This document shows positions 13,443-22,562 of a stretch of DNA of 64,000 bases, piece by piece. Position 1 is the stretch's first letter. Every line of letters starts with the position of its first letter. Origin of the DNA: Candidatus Poribacteria bacterium (GTDB lineage Bacteria > Poribacteria > WGA-4E > GCA-2687025); NCBI GenBank assembly GCA_026004875.1, contig BPJZ01000001.1:64001-128000 (forward strand), given 5' to 3'. Made by a program: the position numbers and the translations under genes. The notes beneath the pieces are model-generated. The model saw only the letters and a list, made by a program, of their open reading frames with translations. It had not been told where the DNA came from and searched no databases.

Positions 13443-14463
13443 ATGGCCTCGGAGAACAAGATTCGAGTAGCGATGCTCAGCTTCGCCCACGTACACGCCA
13501 GGGGCTACGCCCGACAGGCGCAACAGAACCCACGTGTGGAGCTGGTCGCCGTCTGGGACGAGCCGGAGTACGGCGGCAAGCAGGCCGCTGAGGAGCTCGG
13601 CTTGGAGTTCTACTCCGACCTAGACGCGCTCCTCAGCCGCGAGGACGTGGACGGGGTAATCGTCAATGCCCCTACCTCGATGCACGCTGAAGTCATGATT
13701 CCAGCCGCGCGAGCGGGCAAGCACATCTTCACCGAAAAGGCCCTCGCCGTCACCTTAGCGGACTGCGACCGAATCATCGCAGCCGTTCAGGAGGCGGGCG
13801 TTCAGTTCATGATCTCCTTGCCGCAGCGGTGCAATCCGAACGTGCTGTTCGCCAAGAAGGCGATCGAAGACGGCCTGCTTGGCGAGCTTACCTTTGGACG
13901 GGCCCGCGGGGGCCCATTCCGGCGCCCTGGACCGCTGGTTTGGGGGGCCTAGCGCTTGGTTTGCCGACCGAAAGCGGGCCGGCGGCGGAGGACTCTTCGA
14001 TCTGGGCTGCCATCAGATGGACATCCTCCCCTGGCTGATGGGGGGCGACCCCCGACGGGTGACAGCGATCATCAACAACTTCTCCAACGCGTACCCGATT
14101 GACGATAACAGCGCGACGCTGATCGAGTTCGACTCCAAGGCGATCGGCGTTGTGGACGTCTCTTGGGTCCACCGTTCCGGCTTCAACATGGTGGAGCTGT
14201 ACGGAACGGAGGGGTCGATCGCCTGGGGCCACGGAGGGTTCCACTTCCAGACGCGAAAGCTGGATGACGCCGGACGGGAGCGGTACCTGCAGCAGCGGCC
14301 AGCGGGGCTGCCTTCGCCCTTTGAGCAGTGGGTGAACGCGATCCTAGACGGCGCTCCAACGACGATCACCATTCAGGACGGCCGGAACCTCACCGAGCTC
14401 CTCCAGGCGGCGTACCGCTCCGCCGAGTCGGGTCAGGCGGTGGTCCTGCCCCTGGAAAGCTAA
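13443..14463 (+). CDS. Gfo/Idh/MocA-family oxidoreductase (frameshift in a G run)
   Basis: An NAD(P)-dependent sugar/inositol-type dehydrogenase of ~339 residues. The N-terminal Rossmann domain (IRVAMLSFAHVHARGYARQ, then [16 protein letters not shown] and GKHIFTEKALAVT with the family EK motif) is in frame until about 13908. Reading then continues one frame on as HSGALDRWFGGPSAWF, GGGGLFDLGCHQMDILPWLMG and the C-terminal beta domain to 14463. The switch coincides with five Gs near 13904-13908; removing one restores the protein. Substrate unknown. AAAGGAG precedes the ATG. The downstream pseudo-caspase gene starts 4-13 bases later, probably in the same transcript. Confidence 0.85.
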
Positions 14464-14467
14464 CAAA

Positions 14468-16150
14468 GTGCCGCCGATGGACACATTTGGCCGAGCCCTT
14501 TTGATCGTGCTGCTTCTGAGCGGAGGGGTCCTCCCAACCGAGTGGGCCAAAGCCCAAGCGGCCCCTCAGGAGGTCTGGGCGCTGCTGGTGGACCTCGGCG
14601 CTCCGGCAGACGCTCCAGCACGTCCCTCCTCCCGTTCGGACGGAGAGGCCTTCGCGGCGCTCTTGGAAGACCGATTCGCGACCGACTCGGACCGAATCGT
14701 CCTTCGCCTAGAAGAGAGACTCTCGGCGGCGGAGCTCCGCGAGACGATCCGGCGCTTTGCCGAGCTCGTCCACAGCGCCCCGACGCCGGAAGAGCCGGAG
14801 ACAAGCCGACTGGTGCTCCTCTACCTCCGCGCGGAGGTGACCCGACCACCTCAGGAGAGCGCGATCTACTTCTTCTCCGGGGCGGCTCGCCTGGCCGACG
14901 GAACGGGGAACAACCCCGAAGCGATCCGGGACACCACGCTCAGCGAGTGGGTTCAGGCGCTGGAGCCGGCCACCGTTCTGACGCTGTTGGACCTGCGAAC
15001 CCAGGACGAGTCGCTGGGGGTTTACTTTGCCGCTCGAACGGAGATCGGCGACGGCCGGTTGGTCACAATCGCTCGCGAGGAGCTCCCCACGCCGGTTCTG
15101 GATCTCCTCAGCGGCATTCTCTCTGAGGCTCCCGATCCCGATCGAGACGGGTTCCTCCGCTGGGAGGAGGTGCTTCTGGAGTACCAACGCCGAGTCTACG
15201 CGACCGGGGTTAGCAGCGATCGGGTGCTGGTCGGCGGGACCGGCAACCCGGACCTGGTCCTGATGGCGCTTCCAGCTCGGCTTTACGTCGAGAGCGTTCC
15301 GCTAGAGGCGGAGGTCCTCCTGGACGGGCAGTCGGTTGGCAAGACGCCCTACGTTCTGGGACGCCTGCGGGTGGGCAGCGCCCATACGATCCAAGTCCGC
15401 AAGGCCGGATATCGACTTCCCGACCCTCAGACCGTCCTGGTTGAACAGGCACGGGGAGCGGCCTACGTCGCTCGCTTCGTCCTCCAACCGGTTACCATTC
15501 GGGTACAGGTGAGCGCACCGGGTCAAGAGATGCTCGGCCCGATCGTCGTTGTGATCCCGGGGACGCCGTTTCAGACGACGCTCCCAACGCTGGGCGAAGC
15601 GGTCTTCTCCGTCGGCGAGGAGCCGCTCACCGTCGGCGAAACCTATCGGCTGATCGCCGCCACGCCAGACGATCGTTATTTTGGAACGGCTTCATTCCTC
15701 TACACGGGCTATCAGGACGTCACGGTTGCCGTTTCTCTCCAAGAGCGCACCGCCTGGGAGGTGGCAGCGGCCCGATTTGAGGCCGGATTCACTGAAGAGG
15801 CCCTCGCCGCCGCGGAGCAGGCGCTCCGGGAGGGGCTCCTGGAGCCGCCGGAGCTCCCCGGCGAACTGGTCGCGCTGCTCCTGGAACGCTGGGGAGAGCG
15901 GGAGGCTGCCCGGCCCCTTATCGTCTGCGCCCAGCTCCTGGAGCGAATTGGGGCGGAGCGCCAGGCGCAGCGCTATTGGCGTCGCGCTCGTGAACTCGCA
16001 CCGCCCGACTCTCCAGAACGCGCCTTGGCCGACGCACACGTTCGCTCCGGCTGGGGACGGTGGGGATTGATCCTCCTCCTCGTTCTGATCCTGGGAGGAA
16101 CCGGGCTCTTCGCCTACCGCACGCTTCGCGGTTCCCGCCTAGGGGGCTAG
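14468..16150 (+). CDS. Degenerate caspase-like / PEGA-domain membrane-anchored protein
   Basis: A 560-residue exported protein (557 if the ATG at 14477 is used instead of GTG). A signal sequence ends near AKAQ (residue 30). Residues ~33-250 are laid out like a caspase (C14) domain, but both catalytic sites look lost. The strand normally ending SGHG reads LVLLYLRAEV (116-125), and the strand normally ending DACxSG reads LTLLDLRTQDES (171-182). A PEGA domain follows (LYVESVPLEAEVLLDG, ~272-335). Then come another beta domain, a helical segment (TEEALAAAEQALREG) and one C-terminal membrane helix (~538-556) with a basic tail. The caspase reading is inference from strand pattern. Confidence 0.65.
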   Translation: MPPMDTFGRALLIVLLLSGGVLPTEWAKAQAAPQEVWALLVDLGAPADAPARPSSRSDGEAFAALLEDRFATDSDRIVLRLEERLSAAELRETIRRFAELVHSAPTPEEPETSRLVLLYLRAEVTRPPQESAIYFFSGAARLADGTGNNPEAIRDTTLSEWVQALEPATVLTLLDLRTQDESLGVYFAARTEIGDGRLVTIAREELPTPVLDLLSGILSEAPDPDRDGFLRWEEVLLEYQRRVYATGVSSDRVLVGGTGNPDLVLMALPARLYVESVPLEAEVLLDGQSVGKTPYVLGRLRVGSAHTIQVRKAGYRLPDPQTVLVEQARGAAYVARFVLQPVTIRVQVSAPGQEMLGPIVVVIPGTPFQTTLPTLGEAVFSVGEEPLTVGETYRLIAATPDDRYFGTASFLYTGYQDVTVAVSLQERTAWEVAAARFEAGFTEEALAAAEQALREGLLEPPELPGELVALLLERWGEREAARPLIVCAQLLERIGAERQAQRYWRRARELAPPDSPERALADAHVRSGWGRWGLILLLVLILGGTGLFAYRTLRGSRLGG

Positions 16151-17439
16151 TCGACCGAATAATAGTAGCCGATCAAAATCGCCATCTCGTCTTCAGAGGT
16201 CAATCCCCATCGAAGCGGCTTTGGGTTGTCGAAGTTTTCGTGGGTGGCGCTGTGCCGAATACCGTCCCCCTTCCGAACTAGCAGCGGCGGGTCGAACCAA
16301 AGGTTGACCGGATCGAACCAGAGTCGGTTTTCGTAGATCCGTTCCCCGGTGCTAAGCAGTTCCGCAGTATACCGAACCCCATGCCGATGCATGTGCGAAG
16401 TCAGCATCAGCAGATAGACGTCCCGATCGGGCCGCCAGATCCGAGTCGTCGTCCGTCGCTCCCCGTAAGGAACCTCGATTGCCTCGTTCACGTCGAAGAG
16501 AGGGCGCAGCAGATGGCGAACCTCCGACTCGGGGATCGCATACAAGTTTACGTACACCTCGCCGGTCAGGGGACCGGTTGCGCAAAACTCGTTGGCGTAC
16601 AGTTCCCCGCCGTTCAGGTTGACGTAGTGCGAGTTGAGGTCAAAGCGAGTCCCTGCCGGCAGCTTTAAGGCAACGCCCGGCGGGAACTGAACGTCGATCG
16701 CGGGCGTCTGCGCTCCGATAATATACTCCCGACGGAGCATCTCCAGCTCCTGGGGAGATCGAGGATCTAGGTCCCGAAACCGGCCGACCGGCACCTCTCC
16801 CTCTCGAATCCGGTAGAGAATAAAGTGATGGCTTCCCTCCCGCATAACCACTTCGATCCGGTTGACGTAAAGGGTCTCCTCCAAAGGAGGAAGGGCAAAG
16901 AAGACCTCCCGCTCGGTGCCCGGCTGGATGGTGAACGGCTCCAGATGGAGCTGAACGCCTCGCTCTGGTGGCTTGGGAGGATGGAACTCCGGCGGCACCG
17001 TCGGCCGGCCAGAAAGGTCGGGCATCCCCGGAACAACACCCTCCCGCGGGGCGCCCGCTTCGATCCAGCGTCGAATAGCGAGGATCTGGTTGGGAGGTAA
17101 GCCGCGCGTCCCTCGCGGCATGAGCTGACCCATCCCAGGACCGGGACTGAGCAGCTTGACCATCAGAAAGCTCTGAAGCGGCTTTCCCGGCGTCACGCGG
17201 AGCCATCCCTTCTCCCGCGCCCGAGCGTTGGCCGGCTCTGCGCCGACCAGCTGCTCGTAAGCGTCGGGGCCCTCCAAGCTCAGATCTCCCGCCTGAGTCG
17301 CCTCCGAATGACAGGAGCCGCTGACACAGTTCGGTTCGAAGATCGCAGCCCGTAGCTGCTCAAAGGTCGAGGTCGCCTGGCCAAAAGCCGAAAGCACCGC
17401 TAGGATCCAGCTTCCCACACCCAAGAGAATCCGTTGCAT
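16147..17439 (-). CDS. Secreted heme-motif and copper-monooxygenase-like protein
   Basis: A 430-residue exported protein. ATG 17439 with AGGAG upstream gives a clean signal peptide ending near AFGQA. The mature N-terminus has a CVSGSCH motif (C38, C43, H44): a CX4CH heme-like site with wider spacing than the usual CX2CH. Planctomycete-type cytochrome features follow (LMPRGTRGLPPNQILAIRRWIEAGAP). The second half resembles copper type II ascorbate-dependent monooxygenases, with GSHHFILYR and HMHRHGVRY carrying probable metal-binding histidines. It may be a periplasmic or surface redox enzyme. The stop overlaps that of the converging PEGA gene by 4 bases. Substrate and true heme content are unknown. 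Confidence 0.7.
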   Translation of the reverse strand: MQRILLGVGSWILAVLSAFGQATSTFEQLRAAIFEPNCVSGSCHSEATQAGDLSLEGPDAYEQLVGAEPANARAREKGWLRVTPGKPLQSFLMVKLLSPGPGMGQLMPRGTRGLPPNQILAIRRWIEAGAPREGVVPGMPDLSGRPTVPPEFHPPKPPERGVQLHLEPFTIQPGTEREVFFALPPLEETLYVNRIEVVMREGSHHFILYRIREGEVPVGRFRDLDPRSPQELEMLRREYIIGAQTPAIDVQFPPGVALKLPAGTRFDLNSHYVNLNGGELYANEFCATGPLTGEVYVNLYAIPESEVRHLLRPLFDVNEAIEVPYGERRTTTRIWRPDRDVYLLMLTSHMHRHGVRYTAELLSTGERIYENRLWFDPVNLWFDPPLLVRKGDGIRHSATHENFDNPKPLRWGLTSEDEMAILIGYYYSVD

Positions 17440-17494
17440 CGGACAGAACTCCTCGTAAAACTGACGCACTAGTCATGTTTATGATAACGCAAGC

Positions 17495-18658
17495 TCAGGC
17501 GGAAGGGTTGACGAAAAATCGGGCCGAAAGGAACAACCCCAGCCCGTAAAGCAGCACGCCGATCAGCAACACCGAGGAAGGAAGCAAGCCTAGCTCCAGA
17601 AGGGACCAGGCGAGCAGCGGTCCGGAGGCGGCCCCCAGGTCGGAGCCGGTGACGTAGGCGGCCAGGGAGGCGGAACCGCGCAGGGCCGCCTCGCTGGTCA
17701 GGATGGTATTCAGTGCAGTGGCGACGGCAAAAAACCCGATCACCGCCCCGGCTAACAGGGGCAACGGTGACGGTCGCCAAAGGAGGAGCAAAAACACTCC
17801 GCCACCGATCAGGCTGCATCGGGTGAGCCGGTCGCGGCCGTACCGATCGGCTAAGGCGCCAAAGCCTGGGGCTCCCACCCCTTCCAGCACCCACCGGGAG
17901 GCCAGGAGAAGCCCGTTCAGCGTTGCCAGTCCCAACAGTGCCCCCTCTGAGCGCTGAGCTCCAAGCCGTTCGGTGAGCAGAGCGCCCAACGAAGACATCA
18001 CAATTCCGGCGACGCAGCCGACCAGCCAACCGTTGGAGGCGACCAGAACAAGCCGCCGCCACATTCGCCCTCCAGGAGCTGGCGGGGACGGCCTCTTGGC
18101 CCGAGACGGGGCCGCTCCAGCCAGCGGCACCGCCCCTAGCGAAACGAGGGCCATCAGGAGAAAGGTCCAAAACCATCCGCTCAGGTCTACCAGCAGACCG
18201 CCGACCGCGTTTCCAACGAGCGAGCCCAGCCGGGCGATACCGTTGTAAACGCCCACGCTGCGACTCTCCCGACCGGTGGCAGCGGAGGCGGTGACCTCTG
18301 CAATGCCGCTGTGTCGAATGAAGGACCAGCAGAGCCCCCAGACTACCCGCGCCAGTAGAAACCACCCAAAGGCCGGCAACAGCGCATAGGCAAACGTCGT
18401 CAGGCTCCCGACGAAGCAGCTGATCGCAAACAACACCCGCACCCGATACCGCTCCAGCGCCCAGGCGGCCAGCGAGTTGGTCAGAAAGCGGATCCATCGG
18501 TTGACGCTCAGAAGCAGTCCAACGTGAAACGGTGCCAAGCCCAACCGCTCATACTCCGTCGGCAGAACGGCGTAGAGCGCCTGGTCCCCCAGCAGCGAAA
18601 GCGCCGTTGCGCCGCTGACGAGCCAAGTCACCCCTAAGGTGCGTCGGGAACGCTCCAT
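17495..18658 (-). CDS. Major facilitator superfamily transporter
   Basis: A 387-residue permease with about 12 membrane segments. The MFS loop motif is visible as GVGAPGFGALADRYGRDRLTR (GxLADRxGRxR) near the second-half loop 8-9. An N-terminal WLVSGATALSLLGDQALYAVLPTEY segment and RYRVRVLFAISCFVGS follow the family layout. ATG 18658 has GAGGAGAA just upstream; longer upstream reading lies over the divergent subtilase gene and is rejected. Substrate unknown. It is divergent from the subtilase with only 58 bases between the starts, so the two probably share a regulatory region. Confidence 0.85.
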   Translation of the reverse strand: MERSRRTLGVTWLVSGATALSLLGDQALYAVLPTEYERLGLAPFHVGLLLSVNRWIRFLTNSLAAWALERYRVRVLFAISCFVGSLTTFAYALLPAFGWFLLARVVWGLCWSFIRHSGIAEVTASAATGRESRSVGVYNGIARLGSLVGNAVGGLLVDLSGWFWTFLLMALVSLGAVPLAGAAPSRAKRPSPPAPGGRMWRRLVLVASNGWLVGCVAGIVMSSLGALLTERLGAQRSEGALLGLATLNGLLLASRWVLEGVGAPGFGALADRYGRDRLTRCSLIGGGVFLLLLWRPSPLPLLAGAVIGFFAVATALNTILTSEAALRGSASLAAYVTGSDLGAASGPLLAWSLLELGLLPSSVLLIGVLLYGLGLFLSARFFVNPSA

Positions 18659-18716
18659 CTTCTCCTCGGTCCCTCCTTGGAATACCGATACTATATCCGG
18701 AGGAGTGGACAAGGTC

Positions 18717-21700
18717 ATGCCAGACGAAGGCAGATGCGTCAGGCGGGCGGCTCTGAGGAGCCGGAGACACAAAAGAACATTCCTGATCGGTTGGATGCTC
18801 CTGTTGCTGCTCCAAGGCGCTTGGGGTGGGGAGCCCTCCGGCTCCTCCGAACCGCTCTGGGTGCCTGGAGAGCTTCTCGTGTGGATGGCGGACGACTCCG
18901 ACCCGCTCACGGCGTCGGGGTTGCAGGAGCTCCATCGCCGCTGGGGTCTGGTTGAGCGGCGACCTCTTCTCCCTCCATCTAGGGAGGAAAGGGGCCCGCA
19001 CGGCCGTCGGCTAGAACGATGGTGGCAGCTGCGCTTTGCGGAGCCGTTCAATCCCATCCGGGCCGCTGAGGAGTACCGACGCGCCCCTGGCGTTGCCTGG
19101 GCGGTCCCCAACCGGCTGCTTCGAGCTCAAGCGCTGATCCCCAACGATCCGGAGCTTCCCCGTCAGTGGAACCTGATCCCCATCCAAGCGCCGGAGGCCT
19201 GGGAGATCGAGCGAGGATCCCCGGAGGTGGTCGTCGCCGTGATCGACACCGGCGTGGACCTAAGCCACCCGGAGCTGCGGGGACGACTGTGGCGAAACCC
19301 CGGCGAACTCGCCGGCAACGGTCGAGACGACGACGGAAACGGATATGTAGACGACCTCCACGGATGGGACTTCCTGGACGCGCCTGCCCTTGATGGAGAA
19401 GGGGACCTGAGCGATCCGGACCCGGAGCCCCAGGACGAAAGCGGCCACGGAACCCATGTCGCCGGAATTCTTTGCGCCGAAGCCAACAACGGACTCGGGA
19501 TCGCCGGAGTTGCCTGGAACATCTCTCTGATGCCGCTACGGGCCGGGTTGAATCTGCAGCGCGGAGGGACCTTCGTCGTCGAAGACGACATTGCTTCGGC
19601 GATTGTGTATGCCGTGGAGAACGGCGCCCAGGTAATCAACATGAGCTTCGGGGACGGGATCGCTTCGCCACTGCTCGCGGACGCAGTACGTTACGCCGCC
19701 GATCGAGACGTGGTGCTGGTCGGGGCGGCAGGAAACGAAGGGCGCAGCGAGGTAGTCTACCCGGCGGCCTTTCCGGAGGTGATCGCCGTTGCCGCCTCGG
19801 ATCAGAACGACAACGCGGCCTACTTCACCAGCGCGACGCCAGAGGTGGACTTGACCGCCCCCGGCCTGGCGATTCTAAGCCTTGACCTAGGAGGAGGTCT
19901 GCGGACGCTCAGCGGAACTTCGATGGCGACGCCCCACGTGGCCGGTGTGGCAGCGCTGTTGCGCTCAAAGCGACCTGGACTCTCGGCTGAGGAGGTGCGT
20001 CACATCCTCCGCGCCTCCGGCGACCCTCTCCACCAGGAAGGACGGGCCGTCGGCGTGCCCCGACTCAACGCGTTTCGGGCGCTGCAGATGGCCACCGTCC
20101 CTTGGGCGCGGCTAGAGTTGGACACCTCGATCGCCGATCAGGCAATGTGGGTCTCCGGGGCGGTCGGCGGTCCGGAGGTGCGCGGCTACCGATTGGAGTA
20201 CGGGTTCACTCAGCAACCGACCGAGTGGAAGACGCTGACGGAACGGGAAGGGCTCCACCAAGAGACGCGGTTCCGATTCCGCTGGGAGACCGCCGCCTTG
20301 CCAGAAGGATGGGTAACCCTGCGCCTGGAGGCCTGGAACCGAGAAGGTCTCCTCGTTCGCGATCAGCGACTGGTCTGGATCGCCCATCACGAGTTGATTC
20401 CGGCGGCGGAGCGGATCGGCACCCTTTGGGTCTCTGGGGTCGAAACGGGCTATTGGAGCCTGAGAGCAGCAGAGCCGATCGTGGCCGAGTTCACCTTCTG
20501 GCACGCAGAGACCGGCGAACAGATCGGCCCCTGGCGGTTTGGAACGCCCCGTCAGCTGTTCTTTCTACTCCCGGCGGCCTGGCTGAACGCCGGAACGTGG
20601 ACTTACCACTTCAAGGGGAGCGACGCCCTCGGGCGGACGGTACGGGCTCAGGGCACGCTTTGGGTCGAGGAGCGGCCGATCAACCCACATCGGTTCGCCC
20701 CCCTTGTTCTGGCGGCGCCGGCGCTCCGGCTGGCCCCTGTTGTACTGGATCAGGACGGAGACGGAAGGGTGGAGATCGTCGGCGGTTCACCGTCCGACTC
20801 CTCGCTCCAGGTGGCCCAACTCTACGAGTGGGAGGGGGGAGCGCTCCAACTAGAGCGAACGTTTCCGGAGCCTTTCGTTCCGGAGGGGGCGCTCCCCCTC
20901 CCGGACGGGCGAACGCTGATCGCCGGAACGCGGAAGGGGGCGCTGCTGCTCTGGGAGGTGGGCCAGAGCCTGCGATTGCGGGCGCGGATGGAGGGCTACT
21001 CGGACGCGCGCTTTGGCGACCTGGACGGCGACGGTACGCCGGAGCTCGTCGTCAAGCGAGGAGCTTCCGGCGTGGCCGCCCTCGACTGGCGAACCGATCC
21101 CCCCTCGCTCTTGGCGGTCGGGCAGAACCCCTCCGAGGGGCGGAATCACCTAACCGGCGCACCGGCGCTGCTCCCTACCGAGGACGGCTCCTCCGTGGAG
21201 ATCGTCGCGGGAGACGTGGACGGAGACCTGATCCTCTGGCGATGGGCCGGATCGGGGCTTCAGGCGAGCACCCTCCGCGCCGCCGGGCTGACGAGAATCA
21301 ACGCCCTCAAGGCGACGGCGGGGCCGTCCGGCACCGCTGTCGCCGTCCTGGGAGCAGAACCCCTCGACCCGGAGCGCCCAGAGGCGGGAGAGCTCTGGGC
21401 CCTGCGCTGGTACGTCCGAAGAGGGACGGAGCTGGCCCCTGCTAGCGTCGCACCGATTCGGCTTCTCTCCTCGAAGTCCCAACCCCAACTGGCGCTCTCT
21501 TCGACCCCTCGCGGGGTCCGAGTGGCCTTGACAACAGGCACAACACTCTACACCTTCCTTTGGGAGGAGGGGCGAAGCTTCCTCGTCCCAGAGTGGGTCC
21601 GCCGCGGCCGGGAGGTGGGCGAACCGACGTTTCTCCCCCTTGGCGAAAGGGAGGTCCTGTTTTTCGCCCAGGAAGGGCAGCTTCAGGCCGTCTTCGCCGA

Positions 21701-22562
21701 AGAACAACCGCGTTATGCAAGCCTCCCTTACCACCTCCAAGCAGAGATCGTTGGGTCGGGCCTGGTGCGCCTCTGGTGGCGAAATGACCGCCCGGTCTGG
21801 GCCGTCCGCGTCGTCCGAGAGACGGCGAACGGTCGTACGACGGTCCTGGGAGACACCTTCGCCACAGAGCTGCTCGACCGCTCCGCGCCGATCGGGGAGC
21901 GGGTGACCTATCGGCTTCAGGTTGGAGAGACGCTCGCCGACGCGACGGAGATATGGGTCGCCTCCCCGCCCCGTTTGAAGGAAGCGGCGCCTCTGGATGC
22001 GCTGCGAGTGCGACTCCGGTTTTCCGAGCCCATGGGGGTCTCCGCCACTTACGCCTGGGCCTATCGGGTAGTTCGCCTAGAAGGAGCAAGCGTTCCGGTC
22101 CGCTCAGCGGTTCGGACAGAAGGGGGGAGGGCCGTCCTCCTGACACTTGATCGGCCCTTGGTTCCGGGCGAGTATCGCGTTGAGGTCGTCGCTCCGCTTC
22201 ACCTCCGAAGTCGAGATGGGGCCCCCCTGGATCCAGCTGGAGCCGAGGTTCGGTTGTTCGTCGAGTCCAACCCCTCCCCCGTTTATTCGCTGGAGACCGG
22301 CCGGGTCTATCCTAACCCGGTACGTCCCTCTCGGAGCCATCCGGCACGGGTGAGCTTCGACCGACTTCCCAGCGGGACGGAGGTCCGCATCTACTCGACC
22401 GCCGGGCGGCCGGTCGCCTCCGGACGAATTCCGGAGGGGGAAGACCGGTGGGTCTGGCCGCTGGTCAACGAGGCCGGAACTCTGGTCGCTCCGGGCGTTT
22501 ACCTCTACGTCCTCGAGTGGAACGGACGGCACAGGGCGGGCAAACTCGCTGTGATCTGGTAG
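18717..22562 (+). CDS. Giant secreted subtilisin-like serine protease (S8) with FlgD-like C-terminal domain
   Basis: About 1,281 residues. A basic N-region and hydrophobic stretch (FLIGWMLLLLLQGAWG) form the signal peptide, and a propeptide-like segment follows. The S8 catalytic domain has D177 (VAVIDTGVD), H244 (GHGTHVAGIL), the oxyanion N340 (AAGNEG) and S402 (SGTSMATPHVAG). The middle has FG-GAP/VCBS-like repeats (DQDGDGRVEIVGG, DLDGDGTPELVVK, DVDGDLILWRW) and beta-sandwich modules. The last ~80 residues (YPNPVRPS ... VRIYSTAGRPVASG ... GVYLYVLEW) form a FlgD Ig-like/T9SS-type C-terminal domain. It is probably exported and surface-bound or released. ATG 18717 is preceded by GGAGGAG. Confidence 0.92.
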   Translation: MPDEGRCVRRAALRSRRHKRTFLIGWMLLLLLQGAWGGEPSGSSEPLWVPGELLVWMADDSDPLTASGLQELHRRWGLVERRPLLPPSREERGPHGRRLERWWQLRFAEPFNPIRAAEEYRRAPGVAWAVPNRLLRAQALIPNDPELPRQWNLIPIQAPEAWEIERGSPEVVVAVIDTGVDLSHPELRGRLWRNPGELAGNGRDDDGNGYVDDLHGWDFLDAPALDGEGDLSDPDPEPQDESGHGTHVAGILCAEANNGLGIAGVAWNISLMPLRAGLNLQRGGTFVVEDDIASAIVYAVENGAQVINMSFGDGIASPLLADAVRYAADRDVVLVGAAGNEGRSEVVYPAAFPEVIAVAASDQNDNAAYFTSATPEVDLTAPGLAILSLDLGGGLRTLSGTSMATPHVAGVAALLRSKRPGLSAEEVRHILRASGDPLHQEGRAVGVPRLNAFRALQMATVPWARLELDTSIADQAMWVSGAVGGPEVRGYRLEYGFTQQPTEWKTLTEREGLHQETRFRFRWETAALPEGWVTLRLEAWNREGLLVRDQRLVWIAHHELIPAAERIGTLWVSGVETGYWSLRAAEPIVAEFTFWHAETGEQIGPWRFGTPRQLFFLLPAAWLNAGTWTYHFKGSDALGRTVRAQGTLWVEERPINPHRFAPLVLAAPALRLAPVVLDQDGDGRVEIVGGSPSDSSLQVAQLYEWEGGALQLERTFPEPFVPEGALPLPDGRTLIAGTRKGALLLWEVGQSLRLRARMEGYSDARFGDLDGDGTPELVVKRGASGVAALDWRTDPPSLLAVGQNPSEGRNHLTGAPALLPTEDGSSVEIVAGDVDGDLILWRWAGSGLQASTLRAAGLTRINALKATAGPSGTAVAVLGAEPLDPERPEAGELWALRWYVRRGTELAPASVAPIRLLSSKSQPQLALSSTPRGVRVALTTGTTLYTFLWEEGRSFLVPEWVRRGREVGEPTFLPLGEREVLFFAQEGQLQAVFAEEQPRYASLPYHLQAEIVGSGLVRLWWRNDRPVWAVRVVRETANGRTTVLGDTFATELLDRSAPIGERVTYRLQVGETLADATEIWVASPPRLKEAAPLDALRVRLRFSEPMGVSATYAWAYRVVRLEGASVPVRSAVRTEGGRAVLLTLDRPLVPGEYRVEVVAPLHLRSRDGAPLDPAGAEVRLFVESNPSPVYSLETGRVYPNPVRPSRSHPARVSFDRLPSGTEVRIYSTAGRPVASGRIPEGEDRWVWPLVNEAGTLVAPGVYLYVLEWNGRHRAGKLAVIW

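Follow-up and report, generated by a model that had tools for sequence, protein, structure and literature searches.

The window, a 64,000-nucleotide stretch from contig BPJZ01000001.1 of a Candidatus Poribacteria bacterium, carries on its forward strand a gene (14468..16150) that encodes a protein of 560 residues. The frame starts with GTG, an ATG follows at 14477, and no longer frame in the list of open reading frames overlaps it. Open-frame homologues occur in 75 of the 82 genomes of the class, with E-values down to 2.1e-91 outside the source genome, which rules out a chance frame and, as the frames are open in 75 genomes, a recent pseudogene. A same-strand gene for a Gfo/Idh/MocA oxidoreductase (13443..14463) ends four bases before the start; it is broken near 13.91 kb and read in two frames, and its homologue in another genome of the taxonomic family (L149 in G004) has an intact 403-aa frame. 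The break adjoins a G-run and may thus be an assembly error. Tail to tail with the 560-residue protein gene, on the opposite strand, 16147–17469 encodes a 440-aa protein with weak PSCyt1 and Cu2-monooxygenase-type matches. Elsewhere in the window, 18639–22562 encodes a 1307-aa subtilase (PF00082, 1.9e-55); it has an FG-GAP match as well as a C-terminal tail that by eye is of a sorting type (YPNPV).

Two hydrophobic peaks, at residues 4–24 and 529–553, frame the protein. The first belongs to a signal peptide-like N-terminal segment (14468..14560), with a cleavage site placed by eye between AKAQA and APQ; the second marks a C-terminal membrane helix (16052..16126), which the AlphaFold model draws as a helix of residues 516–558 and which is followed by a basic tail. 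Between them lie a predicted pseudo-caspase domain (residues 31–267; 14558..15268), delimited by AlphaFold modelling, fold searches and profile links, and a PEGA domain (residues 272–316; 15281..15415), which gives the sole Pfam match above cut-off (PF08308, 29.7 bits against 20.8, E 6.2e-7). These are followed by a second beta-domain of carboxypeptidase-regulatory-like type (residues 339–425; 15482..15742) and by a TPR-like helical region (residues 429–515; 15752..16012), recognized from model helices and weak TPR matches below cut-off. The second beta-domain is identified by model strands, by PF13620 matches below that model's cut-off (best E 3.2e-6 in homologues), and by structural matches, with carboxypeptidase D structures among the whole-protein Foldseek hits. 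The full-length model has strands alternating with helices over residues 35–259, then beta-domains, helices at 429–510 and a long C-terminal helix.

Homologues were compared in an alignment of 74 of the 75 class members, the one left out (G056) being a C-terminal fragment with an open frame of 238 aa. By a hydropathy count, a C-terminal hydrophobic stretch is common to all 74, an N-terminal hydrophobic segment is found in 66, and 70 have a net positive tail. A single C-terminal membrane helix is well supported by computation. The preliminary description had proposed a PEGA domain and one membrane helix, both of which hold; it had not included the signal peptide-like N-terminus, the EF-hand-like loop, the second beta-domain (~339–425) or the TPR-like helices (~429–515). 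Its suggestion of a surface protein is modified by the topology, which suggests that the protein sits on the outer side of the inner membrane and not on the cell surface proper.

Predicted caspase fold and C14 ancestry

Structure prediction was carried out on the full-length protein (pLDDT 82.2) and on residues 31–267 alone (pLDDT 79.3), from a one-sided alignment in which 42 sequences, all from a single poribacterial group, accompany the 14468–16150 protein. In the full-length model, residues 26–270 superpose on metacaspase-4 with a VIA-align Z-score of 16.4 over 205 residues at 3.1 Å, and on MALT1 with a Z-score of 16.1. The best 50 matches listed include caspases and legumain-type enzymes, and all of them belong to clan CD. 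A whole-protein Foldseek search gave beta-sandwich proteins on the later domains as its first ten matches, with metacaspases from rank 11. For the isolated domain, the 50 Foldseek matches listed are caspases, metacaspases, MALT1 or c-FLIP, with E-values of 1.5e-5 to 3.5e-4 and, among these, moderate TM-scores of 0.39–0.55; VIA-align gave a top Z-score of 13.2, again with all matches listed in clan CD. Among the matches listed for this domain, both models give caspase-fold structures first, over its whole length, as the preliminary description had anticipated in assigning a caspase fold to the N-terminal part, and a caspase fold of residues 31–267 is well supported by these computed models.

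Searches with the protein on its own were uninformative: Pfam and NCBIfam gave no caspase match to it, phmmer with the single sequence against PDB chains returned nothing relevant, and a pattern scan of genome contigs that used this one protein yielded no relative. The link to C14 peptidases appears at the level of the family. In hhalign, a domain alignment of 43 sequences matched 14 poribacterial C14 domains with a probability of 98.1 and an E-value of 1.1e-13 (a single comparison). A family HMM built from the retrieved members and run over 201 open reading frames detected 13 from C14 loci at 19.2–41.4 bits and two from a gene cluster in genome G014 at 41.8 and 62.5 bits; no match came from the 201 after reversal or shuffling, and the 1616 background frames gave no matches other than 64, all above 60 bits, that are the family itself. 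The NCBIfam caspase model NF047832 matches two members, L070 (2.1e-15) and L009 (5.7e-5), with neither match reaching its cut-off, and PF00656 matches two of 25 members, with a best E-value of 1e-4. A profile of 25 domains searched against PDB sequences placed metacaspase-9 (E 0.084) and metacaspase-4 (E 0.55) among unrelated matches. In a tree of 40 rows, 12 C14 sequences form one side of a branch with support of 100/100, L070 adjoins them with modest support (85/86), and the G014 row sits on a long branch of unsure placement. Descent of the domain from a bacterial C14 caspase (orthocaspase), as judged from these profile comparisons, is well supported by computation.

The former active site and an EF-hand-like loop

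The two catalytic sites of C14 peptidases can be located in the alignment of 74 homologues. The SGHG site corresponds to YLRAEV (residues 119–124; 14822..14839) and the DACxSG site to DLRTQD (residues 175–180; 14990..15007), the same replacements as had been proposed from the protein's own sequence. In the aligned positions, the 14468–16150 protein has R121 for Ser, E123 for His and R177 for Cys; its caspase-like domain contains no Cys at all, and its sole His, residue 102, lies away from the catalytic site. A search for retained residues in the homologues, which the preliminary description had suggested as a check, found Cys at the Cys position of DxC in none of the 74 (Tyr in 66, Arg in four, and a single case each of Met, Ile, Phe and Leu) and His at the catalytic-His position of SGHG in one, L070. 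Where SGHG has Ser, 52 members have His, 21 Arg and one Tyr, and 59 of the 74 have no Cys anywhere in the domain. By contrast, among 29 C14 domains of the phylum used as a control, DxC is present in 28 and a simple [YF]xGHG in 27, the other two reading YLSGHG.

Some members depart from this pattern. Three (L052, L054 and L070) have a Cys directly after the Asp, as DC instead of DxC. In one group that reads YHG, the His lies in most members two residues upstream of the catalytic-His position, at the Ser of SGHG; in a profile alignment the HG of this group could alternatively be aligned across a gap with the HG of SGHG, with the nucleophile still missing. L070 itself (L070:1996-3681, genome G008) has RGH at the SGHG site, with a His at the catalytic position and a Cys one position off, and could be a transitional form or retain activity.

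Loss of the catalytic dyad, as read from the alignment, is well supported by computation, and the Arg and Glu at the Cys and His positions agree with the earlier proposal that both residues had gone. On this sequence evidence the 14468–16150 domain is a pseudo-orthocaspase, that is, a C14-derived bacterial domain without an intact dyad, and, as the dyad is missing, the protein would be inactive as a peptidase.

Other parts of the domain are strongly retained. D175, the Asp of the former DxC, is kept in 73 of the 74 homologues. After the former Cys loop, a family-specific conserved motif, YFAARTEIG (15023..15049; YxANRxxxG elsewhere), supplies Y186 (kept in 69), R190 (73) and G194 (74). Further on, an EF-hand-like loop, DPDRDGFLRWEE (residues 223–234; 15134..15169), follows the pattern D.[DN].[DN]..[hydrophobic]...E, which fits the 14468–16150 protein and 73 of the 74 aligned rows. 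Of the 29 poribacterial C14 domains, 8 carry a similar loop close to their C-terminal end; for many of the remaining 21, the stretch retrieved is shorter and may not extend that far. The loop is a putative Ca2+ site. Binding is unsure because position 6, the standard Gly in the 14468–16150 protein, is occupied by Arg in 68 of the 73 pattern-fitting members; the Pfam model EF-hand_7 gave at best an E-value of 0.12, in one of 25 members.

Distribution and gene neighbourhood

Homologues are present in 52 of the 54 good-quality genomes of the class, nearly always as one full-length match per genome. A contig scan with an alignment of 12 sequences found 45 loci, all in Candidatus or uncultured Poribacteria, with search patterns drawn from one group, so that relatives outside the phylum may be missed; no match was found among plasmid records. 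In the 84 phylum genomes searched, the two outside the class gave weak matches in the PEGA region only. These (G082 and G083), together with one match in G007, are multi-PEGA proteins and were discarded as whole-length homologues. True C14 matches occur in 54 of the 84 phylum genomes, with up to 14 in one genome, and none was found in the source genome, which is 64.3% complete.

The neighbourhood of the gene varies. The Gfo/Idh/MocA gene lies upstream on the same strand in G004 and G005 as well, two of the five other genomes of the taxonomic family, and G005 also shares genes presumed to be S1, MetK and AdoHcyase with the locus described here. For many loci in one large group (L071–L115) and for part of a second group, the divergent neighbour is what we take to be an operon for an outer-membrane factor, a MacA-like adaptor, a MacB-like ATPase and a GHMP-type kinase, with a gene presumed to be TruD convergent downstream in part of these loci. 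A search across the class for a common operon partner found no neighbour shared by all loci, and the neighbourhood therefore gives no function.

One cluster stands apart. In genome G014, three genes lie on one strand (L172:3-5958, contig G014:C648). One encodes a paralogue of 989 aa, in which a related pseudo-caspase domain (the HMM match at 62.5 bits) is followed by a beta-region, a TPR-like region and a membrane helix, all recognized by eye, and then by an AAA domain (PF13401, 2.2e-7). The cluster also encodes an nSTAND2 ATPase (PF20702, 1.3e-37) and a second C14-PEGA protein, which reads SGRG for SGHG and DCS for DxC. In a class-wide search, the full-length AAA fusion was present in G014 only. 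The fusion hints at signalling: it shows that an ectodomain of this type can face a cytoplasmic NTPase across the membrane. This supports a sensor role and an inside position of the tail, although a single case is an anecdote.

Proposed function and relation to known systems

The residues needed for cutting are lost and relatives are kept in nearly all sequenced members of the class, so the protein probably works by binding and not by cutting. A regulatory or scaffold role is a reasonable inference, as the preliminary description had supposed. In our preferred reading, to which we assign a probability of roughly 0.6, the 14468–16150 protein is an exported, bitopic inner-membrane protein of C14 descent that does not cut and most likely serves as a non-catalytic scaffold for binding or sensing. 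The order of parts would be a signal peptide, the pseudo-caspase domain with its EF-hand-like loop, PEGA, the beta-domain, the TPR-like helices, the membrane helix and the tail. The large N-terminal part would face the periplasm, with the short basic tail in the cytoplasm. The former active-site cleft, rebuilt around D175, Y186, R190 and a basic residue at 121, may bind a peptide or protein partner; the EF-hand-like loop, if it binds Ca2+, could stabilize or switch the domain; and the PEGA, beta and TPR-like parts may present the pseudo-caspase domain or bind envelope partners. The periplasmic orientation, Ca2+ binding, partner binding and sensing are the inferred elements of the proposal.

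The main rival is a purely structural envelope protein, in which the caspase fold would be a spacer and PEGA and the helical region would do the work, for example by linking envelope layers, with no sensing. The envelope-type domains and the anchor fit such a role, as does conservation, which averages 0.44–0.50 in the PEGA, beta and helical regions and is there as high as in the caspase domain once its best parts are set aside. Those best parts weigh on the other side: the motif after the former Cys loop (0.535) and the EF-like loop (0.537) are the best-conserved stretches, which would be needless in a mere spacer, and we consider the structural role a real but minor possibility. An inhibitor or decoy partner of co-resident true caspases, comparable to c-FLIP, which plays this part for caspase-8, is very doubtful. 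True C14 caspases in 54 of the 84 phylum genomes, and c-FLIP(L) among the structural matches, would suit it; yet the family is present where no C14 was found, including its own incomplete genome, and the only linkage to C14 genes noticed among the loci examined was that of the G014 cluster.

The least probable reading is a still-active protease with displaced catalytic residues. What speaks for it comes from a few members, namely L070 with its RGH and DC and its modestly supported position beside the C14s, L052 and L054 with their DC, and the YHG group, and it is set against a domain that lacks Cys in 59 of 74 members. For the 14468–16150 protein, whose only domain His lies off-site, it is very unlikely, and we reject it there, as the dyad is gone and the domain has no Cys.

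The binding or sensor scaffold that we prefer could be extended to a core transmembrane receptor of Poribacteria, whose dead-caspase head would read a periplasmic peptide or Ca2+ in the rebuilt cleft and signal through the helix to cytoplasmic STAND-type ATPases, mostly in trans and, in the G014 paralogue, in cis. We hold this extension to be distinctly unlikely; if true, it would give bacteria a counterpart to the pseudo-caspase regulators of animals. Apart from it, a dead caspase has been kept through nearly the whole class, usually in single copy, in an exported, membrane-anchored architecture. Its graded relatives, from L070 with RGH and DC through L052 and L054 with DC to the rest with neither, make the catalytic loss traceable, and, should the domain prove to be a sensor, it would be a convenient simple case in which to ask what role a caspase fold has without cutting.

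Close known relatives are the PF00656 Peptidase_C14 orthocaspases of Poribacteria themselves, which share the profile relation, the conserved Asp of DxC and, in 8 of 29 domains, the EF-hand-like loop, but keep the catalytic residues in nearly all 29 domains, where the pseudo-caspase family lacks them. The likeness to c-FLIP(L) (PDB 3h13) and MALT1, which both match the predicted model, is at the level of the caspase fold only: c-FLIP is a non-catalytic regulator, and both proteins are eukaryotic and cytosolic and have other partner domains. PADLOC anti-phage models gave no family for the 14468–16150 protein at E-values up to 0.01. Searches of open-licence literature on Poribacteria and caspase, PEGA and caspase, or Poribacteria and PEGA turned up no account of the family; one paper names caspase and PEGA, but only as separate extensions of FGE proteins.

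Dead bacterial caspases as such are already known; the parts of the sources drawn on here deal mainly with those of cyanobacteria, Alphaproteobacteria and conflict systems. A 2012 account of prokaryotic caspase homologues gives, in the portion consulted, a retained dyad for 84% of bacterial sequences and membrane helices for 15% (PMC3501461). Catalytically inactive caspase domains appear as non-enzymatic modules in NTP-dependent conflict systems in the excerpted text of an eLife paper of 2020 (PMC7159879). The inactive caspase module is common to these and to the poribacterial family, and the G014 paralogue is likewise tied to a STAND-type ATPase; the systems in that excerpt are of the vWA-MoxR ternary kind and the like, none of which was noticed beside the family in the loci examined. 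Close in kind, too, are the pseudo-orthocaspases of a 2019 survey, bacterial domains of C14/p20-type fold without the His-Cys dyad, some with C-terminal TPRs; the excerpted text reports dyads such as YS, YN, YA, FS, QC and HA, mostly from cyanobacteria and Alphaproteobacteria, and the word 'poribacteria' does not occur in the paper (PMC6426788). The poribacterial domain resembles them in its fold and its lost dyad. It differs from those covered in that excerpt in its residues, mostly (variable)-Tyr or (variable)-Arg, and in belonging to an exported, membrane-anchored protein with PEGA and TPR-like parts that is conserved through a class. The poribacterial pseudo-caspase is thus a new family and architecture of a kind, the pseudo-orthocaspase, that is already known.
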